Assembly: GCF_011207455.1 (NCBI RefSeq)
Contig: NZ_CP048877.1
Span: forward strand, 1-64,000
DNA from: Thermosulfuriphilus ammonigenes
Lineage (GTDB): Bacteria; Desulfobacterota; Thermodesulfobacteria; Thermodesulfobacteriales; ST65
Reading direction: 5' to 3'
Length of the DNA: 64,000 nt
Shown piece after piece: positions 8,450 to 55,312 of this stretch (its first letter is position 1; the number at the start of each line of letters is the position of its first letter). A program made the translations under genes and the position numbers. The notes under the pieces were generated by a model that did not search any database, was not told the DNA's origin, and was given only the letters and a program-made list of their open reading frames with translations.

Positions 8450-8660
8450 TCCTTCAAGGGGCCGCGGGCCGGTCTCCCGGCTTCCGGATCAACCTACTTG
8501 CCGCGCCTTCCCAGGGCCTCCCGACCCCAGTGGCCTGTCACCCGGAGGCTTGTCCCTCCGGGCCTAGCGGCGTTCGTCCCCGGTCACGGTTGCGGGCCAG
8601 CGCCGGACTTGCACCGGACTTCCCGTTTAACCTCTCCTTGAAAGAGGCACCCGGGGCCCT
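8450..8660 (-). promoter_or_regulatory. Cobalamin (adenosylcobalamin-class) riboswitch
   Basis: Read on the minus strand, the leader contains GGGTGCC near 8650, GTTAAACGGGAAGTCCGG and GTGCAAGTCCGGCGC near 8605-8630. It then has CCGCAACCGTGA near 8580-8595 and the B12-box sequence AGCCGGGAGACC at about 8472-8483. These are the conserved core elements of cobalamin riboswitches in the correct order. It sits about 100 bases upstream of the TonB receptor gene and should lower its expression when B12 is plentiful. Boundaries are approximate. Additional hairpins between 8385 and 8450 may belong to the expression platform. Confidence 0.93.
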
Positions 8661-8756
8661 CTTAAAGCCAGAATTTTTAAGGCCTGATTGGTAGCATAAA
8701 TTTTTCTTTCTGTCTACACAGGGGGAGGCCAAACTCTCTTTGATCAATCTGGCCGG

Positions 8757-36970: not shown

Positions 36971-38314
36971 ATGGTTCAGGCCATCAAAAAGTACACCTTT
37001 GATAAAGGTGGAATCCATCCTCCTGACCATAAGGAGTTAACCCGAAATCTTCCGGTAGAGACTATGCCCCTTCCTGATGAACTTTGGGTCTCCATGGCGC
37101 AGCATTTTGGGGCCCCAGCTACTCCCTTGGTTAAACGAAAGGACAGAGTAGGAGAGGGAGATCTTATTGGTGCCGTGGAGAAGGGGTTAGGGGCCAACGT
37201 TCATTCCCCGGCCAGCGGTGAGGTTGTGGCCATTGCCTCGGTGCCCCATCCTATTTTAGGAAAGGTACCGGCGGTGGTCATCAAGGTTGATCATTCGGCT
37301 CCTCCCAAGGATTATGAAGCCCGGCCCTGGGATGGACTTTCCCCCCAGGAGCTCCTTGGGCGAATTAAAGAGGCGGGTATTGTGGGTATGGGTGGGGCCG
37401 GTTTTCCTACCCATATCAAACTTAATCCTCCTCCTCAGGCCAAGGTTGATACCTTGATCATCAATGGGGCCGAGTGTGAGAGTTACCTTACCGCCGATCA
37501 TCGTCTAATGGTCGAACACCCCGAAGAAGTGGTTGAGGGAGTGGCCATCATTATGAAGATTCTTGGGGTGGCCAGGGCCTACATTGGGGTGGAGCTTAAT
37601 AAGCCCGAGGCCATTGAAGCCCTTGAACAGGCCGTTAAGAAATCCGCTCGCCAGATCACTGTTGCCCCCCTTGAGGTGAAATATCCCCAGGGTTCAGAAA
37701 AGCAGCTCATCCAAGCCATTACCGGAAGACGGGTTCCGGGGGGAGGCCTTCCAGCAGATGTAGGATGTGTGGTTCAGAATGTAGGCACCACTTGGGCCAT
37801 TTATCAGGCGGTGGTCTTGGGAAAGAATCTTTACGAACGTATTCTCACTGTCTCGGGAAGGGGAGTTAAAAGGCCGGCCAACCTTCTCTGTCGCGTAGGG
37901 GTAAGAGTGGCTGATATCGTTGATTATCTGGGAGGGCTTTCAGAAGAAACAGTTAAATTTATCCTTGGTGGTCCCATGATGGGGTTTGCCATGGCTGATC
38001 TCTCCGCCCCGGTGACTAAGACCACCTCGGGAGTCACCTTTCTCAGTCGAAAGGAGGCCGACCTTTCAAATTATGGCCCCTGTATTCGCTGTGGTCGGTG
38101 TCTGGCGGTCTGTCCTATGGGGCTTTCTCCTAACGAGATCTCTATTTATATGGAGAAGGGACGCTTTGAGGATACGCCTCGCTTTGGTCTCTTGGATTGT
38201 TTTGAGTGTGGTTGTTGTGCCTTTATCTGCCCTTCCAAAAGGCCCCTGGTGCAGTTCATCAGGACAGCCAAAATGAAACTCCGTCAGAAGGCCATGGCTA
38301 CCAAGAAAGGGTAA
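36971..38314 (+). CDS. rnfC: RnfC, electron-input subunit of the Rnf complex
   Basis: A 447-residue peripheral subunit. The N-terminal Rnf barrel-sandwich part and the NADH/FMN-binding Complex1_51K-like domain (GIVGMGGAGFPTHIK, TLIINGAECESYLTADHRLM) are clear. Two 4Fe-4S motifs, CIRCGRCLAVCP and CFECGCCAFICP, lie near residues 365 and 405. RnfC links NAD(H) to the complex on the cytoplasmic side. It starts the order rnfCDGEA-nitroreductase-rnfB-apbE. The length is typical. Confidence 0.93.
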   Translation: MVQAIKKYTFDKGGIHPPDHKELTRNLPVETMPLPDELWVSMAQHFGAPATPLVKRKDRVGEGDLIGAVEKGLGANVHSPASGEVVAIASVPHPILGKVPAVVIKVDHSAPPKDYEARPWDGLSPQELLGRIKEAGIVGMGGAGFPTHIKLNPPPQAKVDTLIINGAECESYLTADHRLMVEHPEEVVEGVAIIMKILGVARAYIGVELNKPEAIEALEQAVKKSARQITVAPLEVKYPQGSEKQLIQAITGRRVPGGGLPADVGCVVQNVGTTWAIYQAVVLGKNLYERILTVSGRGVKRPANLLCRVGVRVADIVDYLGGLSEETVKFILGGPMMGFAMADLSAPVTKTTSGVTFLSRKEADLSNYGPCIRCGRCLAVCPMGLSPNEISIYMEKGRFEDTPRFGLLDCFECGCCAFICPSKRPLVQFIRTAKMKLRQKAMATKKG

Positions 38315-38318
38315 GGGG

Positions 38319-39314
38319 ATGGAAAAACCCATCTTTTACGTCTCCATATCCCCCCACATTCGGGATGTTGACACCGTGCCCCGAATAATGTGGACGGTTT
38401 TTATTGTCCTCTTACCCCAGCTATTTTTGGCTACCTGGGTCTTTGGACCTCGAGTACTTCTGGTGGCTTTAGTAAGCATTCTTTCCTGTGTGGTTGTAGA
38501 GGCTATTAGTCAGCGTCTTTTGGGGCGGCCGGTGACCATAAAAGACGGTAGTGCTGCTCTGACGGGGCTCCTCTTGGCCTACGTGCTTCCGCCGGGAGTG
38601 CCTATTAGCCTTCCCCTTTGGGGGTCTGTGATGGCCATCTTCGTGGCCAAACAACTCATGGGAGGGCTGGGCTACAATATTTTTAATCCGGCCCTGGTAG
38701 CCCGGGCCTTCTTGGCAGCTGGCTTTCCTGTGGCCATGACTACTACTTGGCTTGAACCGTTTGCCTGGCGGAATCAGGCTGACGCTATCTCCTCGGCCAC
38801 CCCTCTTTATCTCCTCAAACATTATGGGCCAGAGGCCCTCAGTGGGCGCTTTGGGGGCTATGAGAACCTGCTCAAAAACTTCTTCTTCGGCCTTCAGTCC
38901 GGCTCCATTGGCGAGACCTCAGCGGCCCTTCTTCTTGCTGGAGGGGTCTTTCTTATATATCGCCGGATTATTACCTGGCATATTCCAGTAGCCACCCTGG
39001 CCACGGTAGCTCTACTTTCCTGGATTTTTGGGGGAGAGGGCCTTTTTAAGGGGGATCCTTTGGTGCACCTCCTTTCGGGAGGCATTATTCTGGGGGCCTT
39101 TTTTATGGCTACCGATTACGTAACTTCGCCCTCACTTCCCCTTTCCCGAATTATCTTTGGAGTTGGGGTGGGGGCCCTTACGGTGCTTATCCGTCTGCGC
39201 GGAGGATATCCAGAGGGGGTCTGCTATGCCATTTTGTTGATGAATTGCTTTGTCCCGGCCCTTGATGAGTGGATCCGGCCCAAACGCTTTGCCCCTCCTA
39301 AGGTGAGGACCTGA
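38319..39314 (+). CDS. rnfD: RnfD, membrane flavin subunit
   Basis: A 331-residue polytopic membrane protein of the NqrB/RnfD family. The probable covalent-flavin region is in ATDYVTSPSLPLSRI, with the Thr of the D-Y-V-T-S-P motif. Eight to ten hydrophobic segments and GGLGYNIFNPALVARAFL are family hallmarks. It carries electrons within the ion-translocating Rnf complex. Its ATG follows a GTAAGGGG site, and its stop overlaps the rnfG start by one base. Confidence 0.93.
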   Translation: MEKPIFYVSISPHIRDVDTVPRIMWTVFIVLLPQLFLATWVFGPRVLLVALVSILSCVVVEAISQRLLGRPVTIKDGSAALTGLLLAYVLPPGVPISLPLWGSVMAIFVAKQLMGGLGYNIFNPALVARAFLAAGFPVAMTTTWLEPFAWRNQADAISSATPLYLLKHYGPEALSGRFGGYENLLKNFFFGLQSGSIGETSAALLLAGGVFLIYRRIITWHIPVATLATVALLSWIFGGEGLFKGDPLVHLLSGGIILGAFFMATDYVTSPSLPLSRIIFGVGVGALTVLIRLRGGYPEGVCYAILLMNCFVPALDEWIRPKRFAPPKVRT

Positions 39315-40210
39315 TGCGGGAGTTTTTAAAGATTACCCTTAATCTTTTTGTCATTTCCTTGGTGGCAGCAGCCATTTTGGGATTTGTCTTTCTTAAAACC
39401 GAAGCCGCACGTAAGGCCAACGAAAAGGCCCGGAAGGAGGAGGCCATGGTCCGCCTCCTTGGCCTCTCTGCTGGGGATAAGGCCAAGGTTCACTTTGTAA
39501 ATATCTATCGCTACCTGATTGAGACTTCCGGGAAGACCCTGATAGGCTACCTTTTTGAGACCAGAAAGGGCCCGGCTTTTGTCGTGCTTACCCCCGAAGG
39601 AAACCTGAGGATGCTGGAGTATCTGGATATTTCAGCCAAGGATCTGGAAGATGAGACTTCCCGGGAAGAGGCTATCAAGAAAAAACTCGGGGCGGGGGAG
39701 CGCCTTACCTTTACTGACAACTATATCGTGGCCACTCTAAATGGCCAACGACTGGGATATTTTATTCTGGGACGAACCCAGGGCTTTAAGACCTGGATCA
39801 AAATGATGATTGCTCTCTCTCCAGATTACACCCTAAAGGGTCTAGAGATTCTGGAGCAAGAGGAGGATCCCGGGCTGGGGGGAGAAATCGAGAAAGAATA
39901 TTTTAAAAATCAGTTTATTGGCAAAACCTTGCGGCGTCTGATGACCTTAAAGGTGATAAAAAGACCCCTGCCAGAGGAGTATCGCCGGTGTCTTGAGCGT
40001 AGTCGCTGGCCAAAGTTGGGGCTCTCGCCTGAGGAGGCTCAAAGGCTCTGTCAGCAATACGTTAACGACGACATCTATGCCATCACGGGGGCCACCATTT
40101 CCAGCACCCGGGTCACCGAGGGGGTCAAAAGGCTTGTTAAGGCCTTTGTCCATCGGATGGAGCTTATTGACCATCTGATAAAACAAAAGGGTCTTGAGGT
40201 TCCCTTTTAG
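39314..40210 (+). CDS. rnfG: RnfG, FMN-carrying periplasmic subunit
   Basis: A 298-residue protein with one N-terminal membrane helix (about 8-27) and a periplasmic FMN-binding domain. The flavinylation site is AITGATISST, with the probable modified Thr261 at the end of TGAT. The usual Asp three residues before this motif is Tyr here (DDIYAITGAT). The FMN would be attached by ApbE, encoded at the end of the operon. It is longer than most RnfG proteins (about 200 residues). Confidence 0.9.
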   Translation: MREFLKITLNLFVISLVAAAILGFVFLKTEAARKANEKARKEEAMVRLLGLSAGDKAKVHFVNIYRYLIETSGKTLIGYLFETRKGPAFVVLTPEGNLRMLEYLDISAKDLEDETSREEAIKKKLGAGERLTFTDNYIVATLNGQRLGYFILGRTQGFKTWIKMMIALSPDYTLKGLEILEQEEDPGLGGEIEKEYFKNQFIGKTLRRLMTLKVIKRPLPEEYRRCLERSRWPKLGLSPEEAQRLCQQYVNDDIYAITGATISSTRVTEGVKRLVKAFVHRMELIDHLIKQKGLEVPF

Positions 40211-40219
40211 GGAGGAGGC

Positions 40220-40837
40220 ATGAACGACAAAGCCCCGGGTATTGGTCGTCTGCTGTTTAACGGCCTTTTTAAAGAGAATCCGGTCTTTCGTTTGGCCCTT
40301 TCCATGTGTCCGGCGGTGGGGGTAACGACCACGGTGCGCAATGGTTTCCTCCTTGGTTTGGCGGTGCTTTTTGTCCAGGTGGCCTCTAATGTCACGGTGG
40401 CCCTCCTCCGGCGCTTTATCCACCCTCGGATTCGCATTCCGGCCTTTATCATTATCATCGCCACCTGGGTGAGTGTTATCGATATGATCTTGGCCGCCTA
40501 TGTGCCTACTTTCTATAAAGAGGTGGCCCTGTACGTGAAACTGATTGTCGTCTTTGCCATCATCATCTCTCGTCTGGAGGTTTTTGCCAGCCGTTATCCG
40601 GTATGGCCTTCTCTATGGGACGGCGTGGGAATGGGGTTGGGGTTTATGTTTGGGCTTATGCTTACCGGTTTTGTTCGGGAGCTTTTTGGGGCGGGGACAG
40701 TCTGGGGCTATGAGGTCCTGCCTGGCCGGGTTCTCTTCTTCCTGGCCCTGCCGCCGGCGGGCTTCTTCACCATAGGTTTTCTAATGGCCCTGTTTAACTG
40801 GGTGGAGAAACAATATCTCCGCTGGAGGTCACGATGA
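40220..40837 (+). CDS. rnfE: RnfE, membrane subunit
   Basis: A 205-residue integral membrane protein of the RnfE/NqrD family with six hydrophobic segments. LFKENPVFRLALSMCPAVGVTT near the N-terminus includes the conserved Cys that in Rnf/Nqr binds an intramembrane iron-sulfur centre shared with RnfA. GGAGG precedes its ATG. It overlaps rnfA by 4 bases (ATGA). Confidence 0.93.
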   Translation: MNDKAPGIGRLLFNGLFKENPVFRLALSMCPAVGVTTTVRNGFLLGLAVLFVQVASNVTVALLRRFIHPRIRIPAFIIIIATWVSVIDMILAAYVPTFYKEVALYVKLIVVFAIIISRLEVFASRYPVWPSLWDGVGMGLGFMFGLMLTGFVRELFGAGTVWGYEVLPGRVLFFLALPPAGFFTIGFLMALFNWVEKQYLRWRSR

Positions 40838-41784
40838 GGGCCCTGGGAAAGTTAGTCTTTTTGCTTCTTTTGGTTCTTATGTTTCGGGGAGAGAGCTCCT
40901 GTTGGGCAGCCCAATTTATTAAAAAAGGCAGCTTTAAGGGAGAAAAAGCTCTCTCCCTTACCCTGGCCGGGCCGATAGACAAAGGCTGGGAGCCAAAAGG
41001 GCGGGTTATCGTCTATGAACATTCAAGCCCCGATATCCCTCTTGATATTCAAAAGGTCGAGATCTCCCCTGATCGAAGACATCTTCTCCTTCTTCTCAAG
41101 GAGCCCATCTCTACAGCTGAGGCCTATGTGGTCAGGCTTAAAGATTTGTCTTCAAAAGGAATCAAAATCGAAGAGGCCCATTACGTTGTCCGGAAATCCT
41201 ATCTGAGTATCATTATGGGGATCTTTCTGGCGGCCAGCCTGGTGCAGAATTTTGTCTTTACCCGCTATCTGGGGCTCTGCATCTTCTTTGGTACCTCTCG
41301 TCGCAAGGAGACAGCCGTCGGTATGGGAATCTCTTTCACTATAGTGATGGTTCTTTCGGCCATTATGGCCTGGGCCATCTATAACTTTGTTCTAAAACCA
41401 TTTCATCTTTATTTTCTCCAGGTTCTGGTCTTTGTGGGAATCATTGCCATCTTTGTCCAACTGCTGGATACCATCCTCCGCAAAGTAAATCCTTATCTTT
41501 TCAAAAAGCTGGGCGTCTATCTCGTTCTTATCACCACCAACTGTATTATTCTGGCTGTACCCCTCATCTTAGCGGATAATGCCTATGATCTTCTGGAAAG
41601 CCTCGCTCTGGCCCTTGGGGCCGGTTTGGGCTTTGCCCTGGCACTATTTCTCATGGCCACGGTAAGAGAAAGGCTGGAGCTGGCCAATGTCCCGGAGGTC
41701 TTCCAGGGGTTGCCCATTGCCTTTATTACTGCCGGCCTTTTTGCCTTGGCCTTTTTAGGTTTCTCGGGGCTTAACCTCTTTTAA
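40834..41784 (+). CDS. rnfA: RnfA with an extra N-terminal exported domain
   Basis: A 316-residue protein. Residues 123-316 are a complete RnfA (SIIMGIFLAASLVQNFVFTRYLGLC and ITTNCIILAVPLI, holding the conserved membrane Cys). RnfA is normally about 190 residues. Here residues 1-26 look like a signal peptide or membrane helix and 27-120 like a beta-rich extracytoplasmic domain rich in charged residues. The ATG overlaps the rnfE stop (ATGA) and there is no start with a better ribosome site at the core. The extension is in one frame without a break, so it is probably real. Confidence 0.9.
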   Translation: MRALGKLVFLLLLVLMFRGESSCWAAQFIKKGSFKGEKALSLTLAGPIDKGWEPKGRVIVYEHSSPDIPLDIQKVEISPDRRHLLLLLKEPISTAEAYVVRLKDLSSKGIKIEEAHYVVRKSYLSIIMGIFLAASLVQNFVFTRYLGLCIFFGTSRRKETAVGMGISFTIVMVLSAIMAWAIYNFVLKPFHLYFLQVLVFVGIIAIFVQLLDTILRKVNPYLFKKLGVYLVLITTNCIILAVPLILADNAYDLLESLALALGAGLGFALALFLMATVRERLELANVPEVFQGLPIAFITAGLFALAFLGFSGLNLF

Positions 41785-41794
41785 GGAGGATCAG

Positions 41795-42367
41795 GTGCTA
41801 AAGGATCTCATCCGAGCCTGCCGGAGCTACCGTCGTTTTCTTCAGGAGCCTATTTCTCGGGAGGTCCTTCTAGAACTCATAGATGGAGCCAGGCTTTCGG
41901 CCTCGGCGGCCAACCTCCAGCCCCTTCGCTATGTGGTGGTTCTGGATCCTGGGGTTAGGGAGCAGGTTTTCTCCTGCCTGCGTTGGGCGGCCTATCTCCA
42001 AGACTGGCCTGGACCAGCGGAAGGGGAGAGGCCTACGGCCTATGTAATAGTTCTCGGCGACTGTCGAATATCAAAGGACTTTAAGATTGACGCCGGCATC
42101 GCTATTCAAAATCTGCTTCTTCTGGCGGTAGAAAGGGGGCTTGGGGGGTGTATCATTGGTTCTATAGACCGTCACACCTTAAGAGAGATTCTAGGGATTG
42201 AGGGTCACTATGAGATCATCGTCACGGTGGCCTTGGGCCGACCGGCAGAAAGGGTGGTCATCGAGGAGCTCGGTCCTGCTCAAGACATCAGATACTGGCG
42301 AGATGAGGCCGGTGTCCATCATGTGCCCAAACGTCGTTTAGAAGATCTTATCATCAAGGTCATTTGA
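41795..42367 (+). CDS. Nitroreductase-family flavoprotein inside the rnf operon
   Basis: A 190-residue FMN-dependent nitroreductase-like protein. The N-terminal LIRACRSYRRF...GARLSASAANLQP is the FMN/phosphate region, GIAIQNLLLLAVERGLGGCIIGS is the dimer/flavin helix, and ALGRPAE is close to the end. Substrates of this family vary widely. Its position between rnfA and rnfB, 10 bases after rnfA and 7 before rnfB, implies coexpression with Rnf, perhaps as an electron-accepting partner; this is an inference. The start is GTG 41795 with AAGGAGGATC upstream. Confidence 0.85.
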   Translation: MLKDLIRACRSYRRFLQEPISREVLLELIDGARLSASAANLQPLRYVVVLDPGVREQVFSCLRWAAYLQDWPGPAEGERPTAYVIVLGDCRISKDFKIDAGIAIQNLLLLAVERGLGGCIIGSIDRHTLREILGIEGHYEIIVTVALGRPAERVVIEELGPAQDIRYWRDEAGVHHVPKRRLEDLIIKVI

Positions 42368-42374
42368 GGGGACT

Positions 42375-43220
42375 ATGGAGCTTAAGGAGTTAGTAGTCAT
42401 AGGCCTGATAACCTTTGGGACCATTGGCCTTATTTCAGGTATGGCCTTGGCCTTTGCGGCCATTAAGTATGCTGTGGAAATAAATCCTAAAATCGAGGCC
42501 GTTAAAGACATCTTGGCCGGAGCCAACTGTGGTGGTTGTGGTTACCCTGGCTGTGAGGCCTATGCTGAGGCGGTGGTTACAGATCCTAATGTCCCTCCAG
42601 ATCTCTGTCGGCCCGGGGGCCCAGAGGTGGCAAGAAGGGTGGCCGAACTTACTGGAAAGACCTTAGGGGCCGTAGAGCCCACGATCTCCTTTCGTCGTTG
42701 TCAACGTAATGAGGGAGGGGTTAAAGAGCGGTTTCGTTATCTGGGAGTGGAAACCTGTGCCGCCGCTAATCTGGCCCTATCCGGGCCTTATGCCTGTCTT
42801 TATGCCTGCTTAGGGCTTGGTGATTGTGTTCAGGCCTGTCCCTTCTCGGCCCTCACCTTGAGGGAAGGGCTTCCGGAGGTAGATCCTCAACGTTGTACAG
42901 GCTGTGGTCTTTGTGTTCGTACCTGCCCCAAGGGCATTCTGGAGCTCCTGCCCCGGGGAGCCCGGGTGATGGTTCACTGTGCCAGTGCCGACCGGGGCAA
43001 AGAAGTGATGGCCGTCTGTCAAGTGGGCTGTATCTCTTGTGGTCTTTGTGTCAAGAAATGTCCGGCCTCGGCTATAGCCCTGGAGGGAGGCCGTATCAAG
43101 ATAGATCATCAGCGGTGTCTGGATCATGGCCCTCAGTGTGGTGAAGTCTGTGTTGAGGCCTGCCCTCGTAAGATTTTAAGGCGCCAGCCGACTTTTGAGG
43201 CTGTATCTCAAGTAGCCTAA
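42375..43220 (+). CDS. rnfB: RnfB, ferredoxin-like input subunit
   Basis: A 281-residue protein with an N-terminal membrane helix (about 8-30). A first 4Fe-4S site is in GANCGGCGYPGCEAYAEA. Further ferredoxin-type Cys clusters follow: C...CLGLGDCVQACP, CTGCGLCVRTCP, CISCGLCVKKCP and C...CGEVCVEACP. RnfB takes electrons from reduced ferredoxin. It is separated from the other rnf genes by the nitroreductase gene. Length and motifs are normal. Confidence 0.92.
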   Translation: MELKELVVIGLITFGTIGLISGMALAFAAIKYAVEINPKIEAVKDILAGANCGGCGYPGCEAYAEAVVTDPNVPPDLCRPGGPEVARRVAELTGKTLGAVEPTISFRRCQRNEGGVKERFRYLGVETCAAANLALSGPYACLYACLGLGDCVQACPFSALTLREGLPEVDPQRCTGCGLCVRTCPKGILELLPRGARVMVHCASADRGKEVMAVCQVGCISCGLCVKKCPASAIALEGGRIKIDHQRCLDHGPQCGEVCVEACPRKILRRQPTFEAVSQVA

Positions 43221-43230
43221 GGAGGTAATA

Positions 43231-44199
43231 ATGAAACGTCGGACCTTAATCAAAGGTCTTCTTGCTGGGGGTCTTTGGGGGGTCGCTTATCAGGCCGTGG
43301 AGGCTATAGAAGGAGAATTTTCTTGGGGTAAAGGGGAGCATCTCGTCTCCCGGAGCCGTACGGCTATGGGAACCCTGGTCTCTGTCACGGTGATTGATCA
43401 TTCTCGAGATTTAGCCGAGGAGGCCATTTTACAGGCCTTTGAAACCATGGATTCTTTGGTGGCCACGCTCAGTCGTCATCAAAAAAAATCCCCCATTTTT
43501 ACCCTTAATACCACCGGCTATCTTAGAAACCCTCCCCAACCTGTGGTCGAAGTCTTAAGTTTGGCTAGCCATCACTGGAAGATAACCAGGGGAGCCTTTG
43601 ATATTAGCGTAAAGCCTCTCCTTGATCTTTACCAAAATCGCTTTTCCCAAGGACAAAGACCCGATGTGAAGGAAATAAAAGAGGCTTTAGAGACTGTGGG
43701 CTTCGAGAAGGTTGCCTTCTCATCAAGGGGCATCTTTTTTAAACGTCAGGGCATGGGTATTACCCTGGATGGTCTGGCCAAGGGCTATATAGTGGATGCC
43801 ATGGTAGATGAACTCAGAAAAATGGGGGTTAATCACGGACTGGTAAATGCCGGTGGGGATCTTAGAGCCTTTGGAGGGCGAGGCCCAAATCGTCCTTGGA
43901 GAATTGCCGTCAGGGATCCGAAACAAAAGAGCGGGATCCTCAAACGTTTTGAGCTTTTTGACGGTGCCTGTGCCACTTCTGGCGATTATGAAATATATTT
44001 TGATCGAGAGCGTCTCTTCTACCATATTGTTGATCCTCAAAGCGGCCTGTCCCCTAAAGGGTTGTCTTCGGCCACGGTGTTGGCCCGGTCGGCGGCCCAG
44101 GCAGATGCCCTCTCCACAGCCCTTATGGTTCTAGGGCCATCGGGGCGGGGTATGTTGAGTAGCCTAGGCTTTAGGGCCTACATAGTACCTAAGGTTTAA
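43231..44199 (+). CDS. apbE: ApbE, FAD:protein FMN transferase
   Basis: A 322-residue ApbE-family protein with an exported N-terminus (KRRTLIKGLLAGG, a possible twin-arginine signal or anchor). The core has GTLVSVTVI, DGLAKGYIVD, VNAGGDLRAFG and PQSGLSPKGLSSATV. ApbE attaches FMN to Thr residues of RnfG and RnfD. Its place at the end of the rnf operon fits that role. The stop overlaps a weak AAGGTT...AACCTT inverted repeat. Confidence 0.92.
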   Translation: MKRRTLIKGLLAGGLWGVAYQAVEAIEGEFSWGKGEHLVSRSRTAMGTLVSVTVIDHSRDLAEEAILQAFETMDSLVATLSRHQKKSPIFTLNTTGYLRNPPQPVVEVLSLASHHWKITRGAFDISVKPLLDLYQNRFSQGQRPDVKEIKEALETVGFEKVAFSSRGIFFKRQGMGITLDGLAKGYIVDAMVDELRKMGVNHGLVNAGGDLRAFGGRGPNRPWRIAVRDPKQKSGILKRFELFDGACATSGDYEIYFDRERLFYHIVDPQSGLSPKGLSSATVLARSAAQADALSTALMVLGPSGRGMLSSLGFRAYIVPKV

Positions 44200-44634
44200 T
44201 TTGAACCTTATGTCTTCTGTTAGCCCTTGAAGGAGCTCCCTTAACCTTAAAAGAAAGGCCAGTTTTTAGCCTCTTTAGGGACAAACTTTGTGAAACTTGT
44301 AATTTTTAAAAATTTTTAACCCTAAAACTAAAGACAATCTCAAAATTCCCTGCTAACTGCTATTGACTTTCCCCACCCACTCATGGTGAATTCTTCCCCG
44401 GCAGATGAGGAGAAACGCCCCGGTTTTGAATGAATATTCAATCATAAGCCTAGTTAGAAGAAGTTAGTTAGTAAGATAAGAAAGTTTTTCCTAATTTTTA
44501 GCGATTTTTCTCTATAAGACGGATTTATTTTATCAAACTTTAATTTATCTTTTATTCTTGACATTAGTTGGCAATTTAAGTAGAAGAGACTGAGCCTTGT
44601 TGCCGGTTGAATTGTTCGAGGTGCAGGGGGTTTG
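44200..44634 (+). other. Intergenic region between apbE and nuoA
   Basis: A 435-base non-coding stretch with no supported gene. It holds a weak inverted repeat (AAGGTT 44191-44196 with AACCTT 44204-44209) that overlaps the apbE stop. TTGAAT-N4-ATTCAA at 44426-44441 resembles a small operator. AT-rich sequence follows from about 44450 to 44560, and the nuo promoter described separately. I see no tRNA-like or riboswitch-like structure in it. Confidence 0.6.
44558..44586 (+). promoter_or_regulatory. Sigma-70-type promoter of the nuo operon
   Basis: TTGACA (44558-44563, consensus -35) is followed after 17 bases by TAGAAG (44581-44586), about 50 bases before the nuoA start. It lies at the end of an AT-rich tract, the only strong candidate in this intergenic region. 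Confidence 0.6.
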
Positions 44635-45000
44635 ATGGGAGGTTTTGAATACATTGCTGCCTACCTGGCTATTGCCGCTGTAGTGGCAGCGGCAATGATC
44701 TTTTTCTCCTATCTTTTGGGGCCCAAGCGGTGGGATGCCGACAAGCTTGACACCTATGAATGTGGTGTCCCTCTTCTTGATCCTTCTCGCAAAAGGTATG
44801 ACGTTAAGTACTACCTGGTAGCTGTTCTTTTCCTCATCTTTGATCTGGAGACGGTCCTTATTTATCCCTTGGCTTCCAAGTTTAGGGTCTATGCCCAATA
44901 CGGCTGGGCCATTTTTATAGAGGTCTTCATCTTCGTCTTTATCCTTCTGGTGGGTCTTATCTATGCGCTGAAGAAGGGCGCTGTGGAGTGGGAGCGTTAA
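44635..45000 (+). CDS. nuoA: NuoA, complex I membrane subunit
   Basis: A 121-residue subunit with three hydrophobic segments and the family motif [10 protein letters not shown] followed by [17 protein letters not shown]. It is a small membrane-arm subunit at the quinone-binding junction. I chose ATG 44635 over the adjacent in-frame TTG 44632; GCAGGGGG is the probable ribosome site. It opens nuoABCDHIJKLMN; there is no nuoE, nuoF or nuoG in the operon. Confidence 0.94.
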
Positions 45001-45002
45001 TC

Positions 45003-45497
45003 ATGGGTGTTGAAGGGTATACCGGAGAAGGCTGGTTTTTAACTCAACTCAACAAACTGGTTAACTGGGGGCGTAAAAATTCTCTCTGGCCCCTTCCTTT
45101 TGGAACAGCCTGCTGTGGTATAGAGCTTATGGCCACTTTGGCTTCCTCCTATGATATGGCTCGCTTTGGAGCTGAGCGGGTATCTTTTGCCCCCCGCCAG
45201 GCTGATCTTCTCATAGTGGCCGGGACCATTACCAAAAAGATGGCTCCGGTGTTGCGCAAGATTTATCTCCAAATGGCCGAACCCAAGTGGGTGATTGCCA
45301 TGGGAGCCTGTGCCTGTAGTGGGGGTGTCTTCCGTACCTACGCTACTTTGCAGGGGATTGATCTCATTATTCCTGTGGATGTCTATATTCCTGGTTGTCC
45401 GCCAAGGCCTGAGGCCCTCCTTCAGGCCCTAATTATGATCCAGAAAAAAATCGAAAAGGAACGGCCTCTGTCACGGGTGGCCCAGGCTGGAGGTTAG
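45003..45497 (+). CDS. nuoB: NuoB, complex I N2-cluster subunit
   Basis: A 164-residue subunit of the Q-module with the adjacent Cys pair [13 protein letters not shown] and further Cys in [10 protein letters not shown] and [13 protein letters not shown] that ligate the terminal 4Fe-4S cluster N2. ATG 45003 is two bases after the nuoA stop. An in-frame GTG at 44988 inside nuoA is less likely. Confidence 0.95.
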
Positions 45498-45501
45498 GCA
45501 G

Positions 45502-45987
45502 ATGGAGCTTCAGGCCCGCTTAAAGAGCCGTTTCGCGGATGATATCCTGGAGTTTATCGAGTTTCGGGGAGATCTGACCATAGAGATTCCCCGTGAGAAG
45601 CAGTTTTCGATTCTTAAGGCCCTTCGAGAGGAGGATGATTTCTCCTTTGATATGCTTATTGATGTCATCGGGCTTGATAACTACCCCCCGCCAGAAGGAA
45701 AGCCTCGCTTTGAAGTTATCTATCTTCTTTTGGCTACCAAGACTAATGAGAGATTGAGGGTCAAGGTTCGAGTGCCTGAAGACGATCCCCGACTTCAGTC
45801 GGTGACTTCTATCTGGAAGGCCGCTGATTGGCCGGAGAGGGAGACCTATGACATGTTCGGCATTGTTTTTGAGGGCCATCATAATCTAAAGCGTCTCCTT
45901 ATGTGGGATGAATTTCCGGCGCATCCCCTGCGGAAAGACTACGCTCTCGAGGGTCAGGGAGAAGAAAGGGTTCTTAAGTATCGCTAA
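45502..45987 (+). CDS. nuoC: NuoC, complex I 30-kDa subunit
   Basis: A 161-residue subunit with the family segment [34 protein letters not shown]. It belongs to the hydrophilic Q-module with NuoB and NuoD. It is separate from NuoD, unlike the fused NuoCD of E. coli. Its start follows GGAGGTTAGG. Confidence 0.94.
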
Positions 45988-45999
45988 AGAAAGGGAGCC

Positions 46000-47139
46000 A
46001 TGGCTATCAGGGAAAAGATCGTCGAGTTTTCGCCAGAACATATCGTCAAAATTAATATTGGTCCCTCCCATCCGGCCATGCATGGGACTCTCCGGGTGAT
46101 CACTAAGATCGACGGAGAGTTAATCATCGATGCCCAGCCCGAGATAGGCTACCTTCATCGAGGTTTAGAGAAGCTCTGCGAGAACCTCAATTACCACCAG
46201 ATAATTCCCCTGACAGATCGTCTTAACTATGTCTCGGCCATATGTAACAACGTGGCCTATCAAATGACAGTAGAGAAACTTCTTGATATTGAGGTCCCTG
46301 AAAGGGCCCAGTGGTTACGGGTCATCTTTATGGAGCTGGCCCGTATCGCGGATCACATTGTCTGTTTGGGCATTCTGGGGGTAGATATCGGGGCCTTTAC
46401 CCCCTTTCTCTATGTCTTTATCGAGAGAGAAAAGATCTACGACATCTTTGAGGCCTACAACGGAGCCCGCCTAACAAACACCTTTGGTCGTATCGGTGGC
46501 CTGGATCAAGAGCCTCCAGAGAATCTTGAGGAGATGATTCGAGATCTTTTTAAGACCCTTCCCCGGGCCATCGACGAGATGGATAAGCTCCTTACCCGCA
46601 ATCGTATTTGGATGGACCGTACCATCGGTGTCTCGGCCTTTACCCCTGAGCAGGCCATAGAATGGGGGTTTACCGGGCCTTGCCTTCGGGCCTGCGGTGT
46701 AAGAAGGGATCTCCGGAAGGACGAACCATATCTTACCTATCCGGCCCTAGAATTTGAGGTCCCGGTGGGCAGTCACGGAGATATCTATGATCGCTACATT
46801 GTCCGTCTGGAGGAGATGCGGCAGTCCATTCGGATCATCGACCAGTGTCTCAGGATGATGCCCAAGGAGGGCCCCATCAAGGCGGCTACCCCTATCAAGC
46901 CAGCGGCCAAGGCCAAGCTTCCCGCAGGGGATGTCTATTTTGCCCTCGAGTCTCCTAACGGGGAGTTAGGTTTTTTTATCCGGAGCGATGGTACAGAGCG
47001 TCCGGCCCGCCTCCATGTGCGGGCTCCATGTTACATGATATACCAGGCCTTTCCTGAGCTTACCCGTGGGGGGATGGTGGCTGATCTCATTGCCGTCCTC
47101 TCCAGCCTTAACGTGATTGCCGGAGAGCTGGACCGATGA
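46000..47139 (+). CDS. nuoD: NuoD, complex I 49-kDa subunit
   Basis: A 379-residue subunit related to hydrogenase large subunits. Motifs include [38 protein letters not shown] and the C-terminal [11 protein letters not shown]. It forms much of the quinone-binding site with NuoB. It overlaps nuoH by 4 bases (ATGA). The length is typical for a stand-alone NuoD. Confidence 0.95.
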
Positions 47140-55004: not shown

Positions 55005-55080
55005 TGGAGCCGGCGAGGGGACTTGAACCCCTAACCTGCTGATTACAAGTCAGCCGCTCTGCCAATTGAGCTACACCGGC
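55005..55080 (-). tRNA. tRNA-Thr (anticodon TGT)
   Basis: The minus strand folds into a cloverleaf. The 7-bp acceptor stem is GCCGGTG/CGCCGGC (with one G-U), the D arm is GCTC...GAGC, and the anticodon stem CTGA/TCAG encloses CTTGTAA with anticodon TGT. The T arm has loop TTCAAGT. The 3' CCA is encoded (plus-strand TGG at 55005-55007). It is the last of three adjacent tRNA genes on this strand. Confidence 0.95.
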
Positions 55081-55103
55081 TCAAGTGGAGCAAAGAAACT
55101 AAA

Positions 55104-55195
<92 letters not shown>

Positions 55196-55220
55196 GCAGA
55201 TGAGTCAAGTTTTGGCGGCC

Positions 55221-55312
55221 TGGCGGAGGGGGAGGGATTCGAACCCCCGTCCCGCAGGTGTGCGGGAAGCGGTTTTCAAGACCGCCGCCTTCGTCCGCTC
55301 GGCCACCCCTCC
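55221..55312 (-). tRNA. tRNA-Ser (anticodon TGA)
   Basis: A class II tRNA with acceptor GGAGGGG/CCCCTCC and anticodon loop CTTGAAA between CGGT and ACCG (anticodon TGA). The variable arm CCCGCACACCTGCGGG is long and the T loop is TTCGAAT. CCA is encoded. It is the first of three tRNA genes on this strand and decodes TCA and related serine codons. Confidence 0.95.

Follow-up and report, generated by a model that had tools for sequence, protein, structure and literature searches.

Results

An rnf operon with an extended rnfA

We analyzed the first 64,000 nucleotides of the Thermosulfuriphilus ammonigenes chromosome (NCBI RefSeq assembly GCF_011207455.1, contig NZ_CP048877.1, positions 1 to 64,000, forward strand; hereafter the window). 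An rnf operon lies on the plus strand in the order rnfC (36971–38314), rnfD (38319–39314), rnfG (39314–40210), rnfE (40220–40837), rnfA (40834–41784), and rnfB (42375–43220), followed by the flavin transferase gene apbE (43231–44199), so that all six subunits are encoded together. A nitroreductase-like gene (41795–42367, +) sits between rnfA and rnfB, where no other operon we read has one. Genes that by eye look like those of complex I (nuoA, B, C, D) follow the operon directly (44632–47139). An Rfam search found nothing in the operon, and elsewhere in the window it found a cobalamin riboswitch (8450–8669, −; 95 bits) and three tRNA genes in a row (55008–55312, −).

We first evaluated the sequence-only reading that this RnfA, normally about 190 residues with six helices, carries in its first 122 residues a probable signal or anchor and a roughly 95-residue soluble domain ahead of an intact core. 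That observation is confirmed. RnfA is 316 aa, the Pfam Rnf-Nqr family covers residues 128–313, solved RnfA chains align from residue 127 on, and nothing known covers residues 1–125. The boundaries given in that reading are essentially right, with a signal peptide at residues 1–25 (40834–40908, +), a domain at residues 26–122 (40909–41199, +), and the core from residue 123 on (41200–41781, +), in which the cluster cysteines Cys149 and Cys237 are kept. The RnfA scored 214.8 bits with the curated NCBIfam model TIGR01943, below its cut-off of 229.3, although the Pfam Rnf-Nqr cut-off was passed.

We next tested whether the extension could be an annotation artefact, with translation starting near Met128, which is close to the usual start of standard RnfA; an internal start near residue 120 and strains lacking the extension had both been named beforehand as refuting conditions. 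The rnfA ATG overlaps the rnfE stop codon (ATGA) and is preceded by GGAGG, whereas Met128 has no Shine-Dalgarno in front of it. A pattern scan of GTDB species genomes found 12 loci with the extension, and whole-genome searches found orthologues in 48 other genomes. In detail, the extension was present in 11 of 395 sampled Desulfobacterota genomes, sharply separated from about 135 genomes with a core-only match, in all 18 genomes of one family (which includes records named Desulfomonile), and in 29 of 85 genomes of another class. Together with the window this makes 49 distinct proteins. Their start lies −4 to +14 nt from the rnfE stop in 48 of 49, and their length is 310–324 aa in all but one, a contig-truncated 249 aa. 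Among 24 sufficiently close pairs, median dN/dS was 0.14 for the extension and 0.03 for the core, so the extension is translated in this frame and evolves under purifying selection. An internal start is therefore rejected as very unlikely, as is an artefact of one strain. Strains lacking the extension exist only in the sense of a different Rnf clade, since all orthologues of this clade keep it. None of the 40 genomes from the window's own order had any match, suggesting that the window's operon was probably acquired horizontally, which is an inference.

A predicted Ig-like domain on the periplasmic side

We then asked what the additional domain is. AlphaFold2 with a 20-sequence alignment gave an all-beta fold, a confident Ig-like beta-sandwich (pLDDT 94.3), for which Foldseek found S-layer SbsC (TM 0.84) and the periplasmic copper protein CopC (TM 0.55–0.70). 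The Pfam Big_5 profile matched 17 of 20 homologues (best E 1.2e-6) but not the window copy itself, and a profile search found the S-layer protein Sap at E 3e-4. CopC-like copper binding was rejected, as the cap has no conserved His, Met or Cys, and in particular no invariant or nearly invariant His.

To place the domain, we examined export signals and charge bias. By manual and regular-expression reading rather than SignalP, the window has a Sec type I signal, while about half of the orthologues carry a lipobox (23 of 49 by a loose pattern that includes at least one doubtful case and misses two likely ones) and the others mostly have Sec type I-like ends. Both kinds of signal place the domain outside. 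Successive loops of the core carry on average 3.1, 1.3, 3.4, 0.1, 3.2, and 0 K+R over the 49 proteins, so by the positive-inside pattern the core is N-out and C-out. RnfA and RnfE have inverted topology (PMC12174285), and E. coli RnfA is reportedly N-out (Saaf et al. 1999). Together with a confident Ig-like fold of a kind common in envelope proteins, these sequence-based lines of evidence support a periplasmic position well.

The domain diverges faster than the core (29% mean identity to the window versus 69%), which fits a spacer or surface role as well as a docking face. It also fits the loose constraint expected if the extension were a biogenesis aid, in which the signal peptide and folded domain force N-out insertion or stabilize RnfA without a role in electron transfer; a signal peptide would, by inference, help N-out insertion. 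We consider this unlikely, since a conserved (S/D)PDI motif and about 16 positions conserved in at least 90% of the 49 proteins suggest a specific surface, and standard RnfA is made without such an aid. It is also possible, though less likely than a role within the complex, that the cap binds peptidoglycan, the outer leaflet, or another periplasmic protein, anchoring or organizing Rnf rather than serving RnfG. Big_5/SbsC-type Ig domains are common in S-layer and envelope proteins, and a lipobox would fix the N-terminus in the membrane. Against this, no conserved neighbor gene in the operons examined encodes an obvious periplasmic partner, and a search for a conserved flanking partner such as a multihaem cytochrome gave only one candidate, with seven CxxCH motifs, near one operon. 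The domain instead tracks an enlarged RnfG in every operon read. In lipobox-bearing lineages (loci L067, L068, L070, L073, and L074), a conserved gene that by its start sequence looks like riboflavin kinase/FAD synthetase precedes rnfC.

The extension co-occurs with an enlarged RnfG

Every clade operon read has the order C-D-G-E-A-B. The window's RnfG is 298 aa, and RnfG is about 300 aa and aligns end to end in 20 of 20 clade operons, while standard RnfG is typically about 190–210 aa where the start is clear (a few longer values are probably over-extended starts). The covalent flavinylation motif is kept in the window (Thr258-Gly259-Ala260-Thr261). The added periplasmic segment (about residues 53–125; 39470–39688, +), absent from standard RnfG, is beta-rich in an AlphaFold2 model (pLDDT 88.6 overall). 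The conserved motif (E)TPGLG reads (E)DPGLG in all 20 clade RnfG (window residue 185, 39866–39868), whereas the Thr is kept in 21 of 21 standard ones.

RnfE lacks a cluster cysteine described as invariant

We next compared 20 clade and 27 standard operons and found many clade-fixed changes around the RnfA/RnfE cluster kinks, including RnfA P150I/V, P231V, and G241A and RnfE G28S and N112F. The key change is in RnfE (205 aa), where Phe112-Ala113 (codons at 40553–40558, +) replaces Asn-Cys. A gapless alignment puts window Ala113 on Clostridium tetanomorphum RnfE Cys109 and Vibrio cholerae NqrD Cys112. Read by alignment column, with one frameshifted locus left out, 49 of 49 clade members lack this cysteine (47 F-A, 2 F-S), while it is kept in 27 of 27 standard operons, in all readable standard RnfE as N-C, and in all four solved homologues. 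The other three cluster cysteines, including RnfE Cys30, are invariant in the clade wherever readable. We looked for a compensating cysteine and found none conserved across the clade in RnfA or RnfE; the window's RnfA core and RnfE together contain just three. The cluster cysteines of RnfB and RnfC are kept. The literature calls this region strictly conserved and the four cysteines invariant (PMC9588780), and in NQR they ligate a [2Fe-2S] in NqrD/E (PMC9325719, PMC10643135), the ligands being NqrD Cys29/Cys112 and NqrE Cys26/Cys120 (PMC9325719). Neither the long RnfG nor the missing RnfE cysteine had been noted in the sequence-only reading, and both matter more, the missing cluster ligand being the more surprising result.

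V. cholerae NqrD-C29A lacks the cluster (PMC10643135), so a three-Cys centre might hold no cluster at all. An RnfA/RnfE pair without any redox cluster, with a changed electron path, for example through RnfG and RnfD only, would also fit the other fixed changes around the kinks. We regard this as unlikely, because invariance of the three remaining cysteines is improbable if no metal is bound, and the RnfB and RnfC cluster cysteines being kept also speaks against it. Clade-specific polar residues that could matter are RnfE Ser28 (two residues from Cys30), Gln53, His68, and Lys107, and RnfA Asp212, each no more than a candidate ligand.

The extension marks one clade of Rnf complexes

A tree of RnfE plus the RnfA core put all clade members on one side of a 100/100 branch of about 1.5 substitutions/site, also when solved Rnf and NQR chains were included, with the root relative to NQR not resolved. 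The clade has been found so far only in Desulfobacterota, the sole search outside this group being the pattern scan of GTDB species genomes, which reaches only close relatives. Five sampled genomes hold both a clade-type and a standard Rnf (G375, G263, G303, G140, and G393), while by match counts others apparently hold only the clade type (for example the window, G182, G322, and G139), so the variant probably works on its own. A literature search for an N-terminal extension of RnfA gave no paper, and four papers mentioning both the Rnf complex and Desulfomonile did not address it in title or abstract.

Discussion

We interpret the locus as encoding a distinct, apparently undescribed subtype of the Rnf ion pump, with a probability of roughly 0.6. 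In this view, RnfA starts with a cleavable signal peptide (a lipoprotein signal in about half of the orthologues) and an Ig-like beta-sandwich held on the periplasmic end of helix I. Because RnfA is N-out, the domain would sit over the outer mouth of the RnfA/RnfE pair, where the RnfG flavin head picks up the electron in known complexes, RnfG moving between RnfA/E and RnfD on the outer side (PMC12174285, PMC11889175). We propose that the RnfA cap and the added RnfG segment probably work together and form a periplasmic docking or gating surface that positions the RnfG flavin for a remodelled three-Cys centre with a non-cysteine fourth ligand and a shifted potential, the cap having evolved together with this changed centre. 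Sequence and prediction show the extension, its conservation, its fold, its periplasmic side, its co-occurrence with long RnfG, and the loss of the cysteine, whereas contact between cap and RnfG, the nature of the centre, and ferredoxin:NAD oxidoreduction coupled to ion transport remain inferred. Co-occurrence within one monophyletic clade may reflect shared ancestry rather than function, as a single origin makes it one event without independent replication. The suggestion in the sequence-only reading that the domain lies outside the membrane and possibly docks RnfG or a periplasmic partner is thus partly supported: its placement is well supported, while docking on RnfG is plausible and favored by the perfect co-occurrence with an enlarged RnfG but is not shown.

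A more far-reaching reading, which we hold only tentatively, is that the membrane-crossing electron centre of this clade is not the four-Cys [2Fe-2S] cluster but a three-Cys centre with a non-cysteine ligand (for example RnfE Ser28) or another metal centre, coupled to the cap and the enlarged RnfG shuttle and giving a different redox potential or gating than any Rnf/NQR studied. How Rnf and NQR carry an electron across the membrane through the RnfA/RnfE cluster, and whether that step drives the ion, is under active dispute. A natural clade that lost a ligand described as strictly conserved, yet keeps the complex under strong selection and in several genomes seems to have no other Rnf, is a ready-made test of that model, and the cap and long RnfG give visible handles on the moving periplasmic step.

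Comparison with known systems

The cap shares its predicted fold with SbsC-type S-layer Ig-like domains, and Big_5 hits occur in 17 of 20 homologues, but the window copy itself has no Big_5 hit and the cap is a single copy on an energy-converting membrane protein. It has a beta-sandwich similar to that of CopC without the conserved copper-binding His residues. In Na+-NQR (V. cholerae 7xk3), NqrD/NqrE are homologues of RnfE/RnfA, and NqrC, like the long RnfG, has extra sequence before the flavin domain. However, Na+-NQR has no RnfA-type cap, NqrD Cys112 is present, and the window core scores higher with Rnf than with Nqr models (rnfA 214.8 bits against nqrE 152.3, cut-off 247.6). Compared with the canonical Rnf complex (C. 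tetanomorphum 7zc6, A. woodii 9eri, and A. vinelandii 8ahx), the locus encodes the same six subunits, with six-helix RnfA/RnfE, the flavinylation motif in RnfG, and the RnfB and RnfC cluster cysteines, but its RnfA has a predicted Ig-like cap, its RnfG is longer by about 100 residues (about 75–100 across the clade), and its RnfE lacks the Cys109 equivalent.
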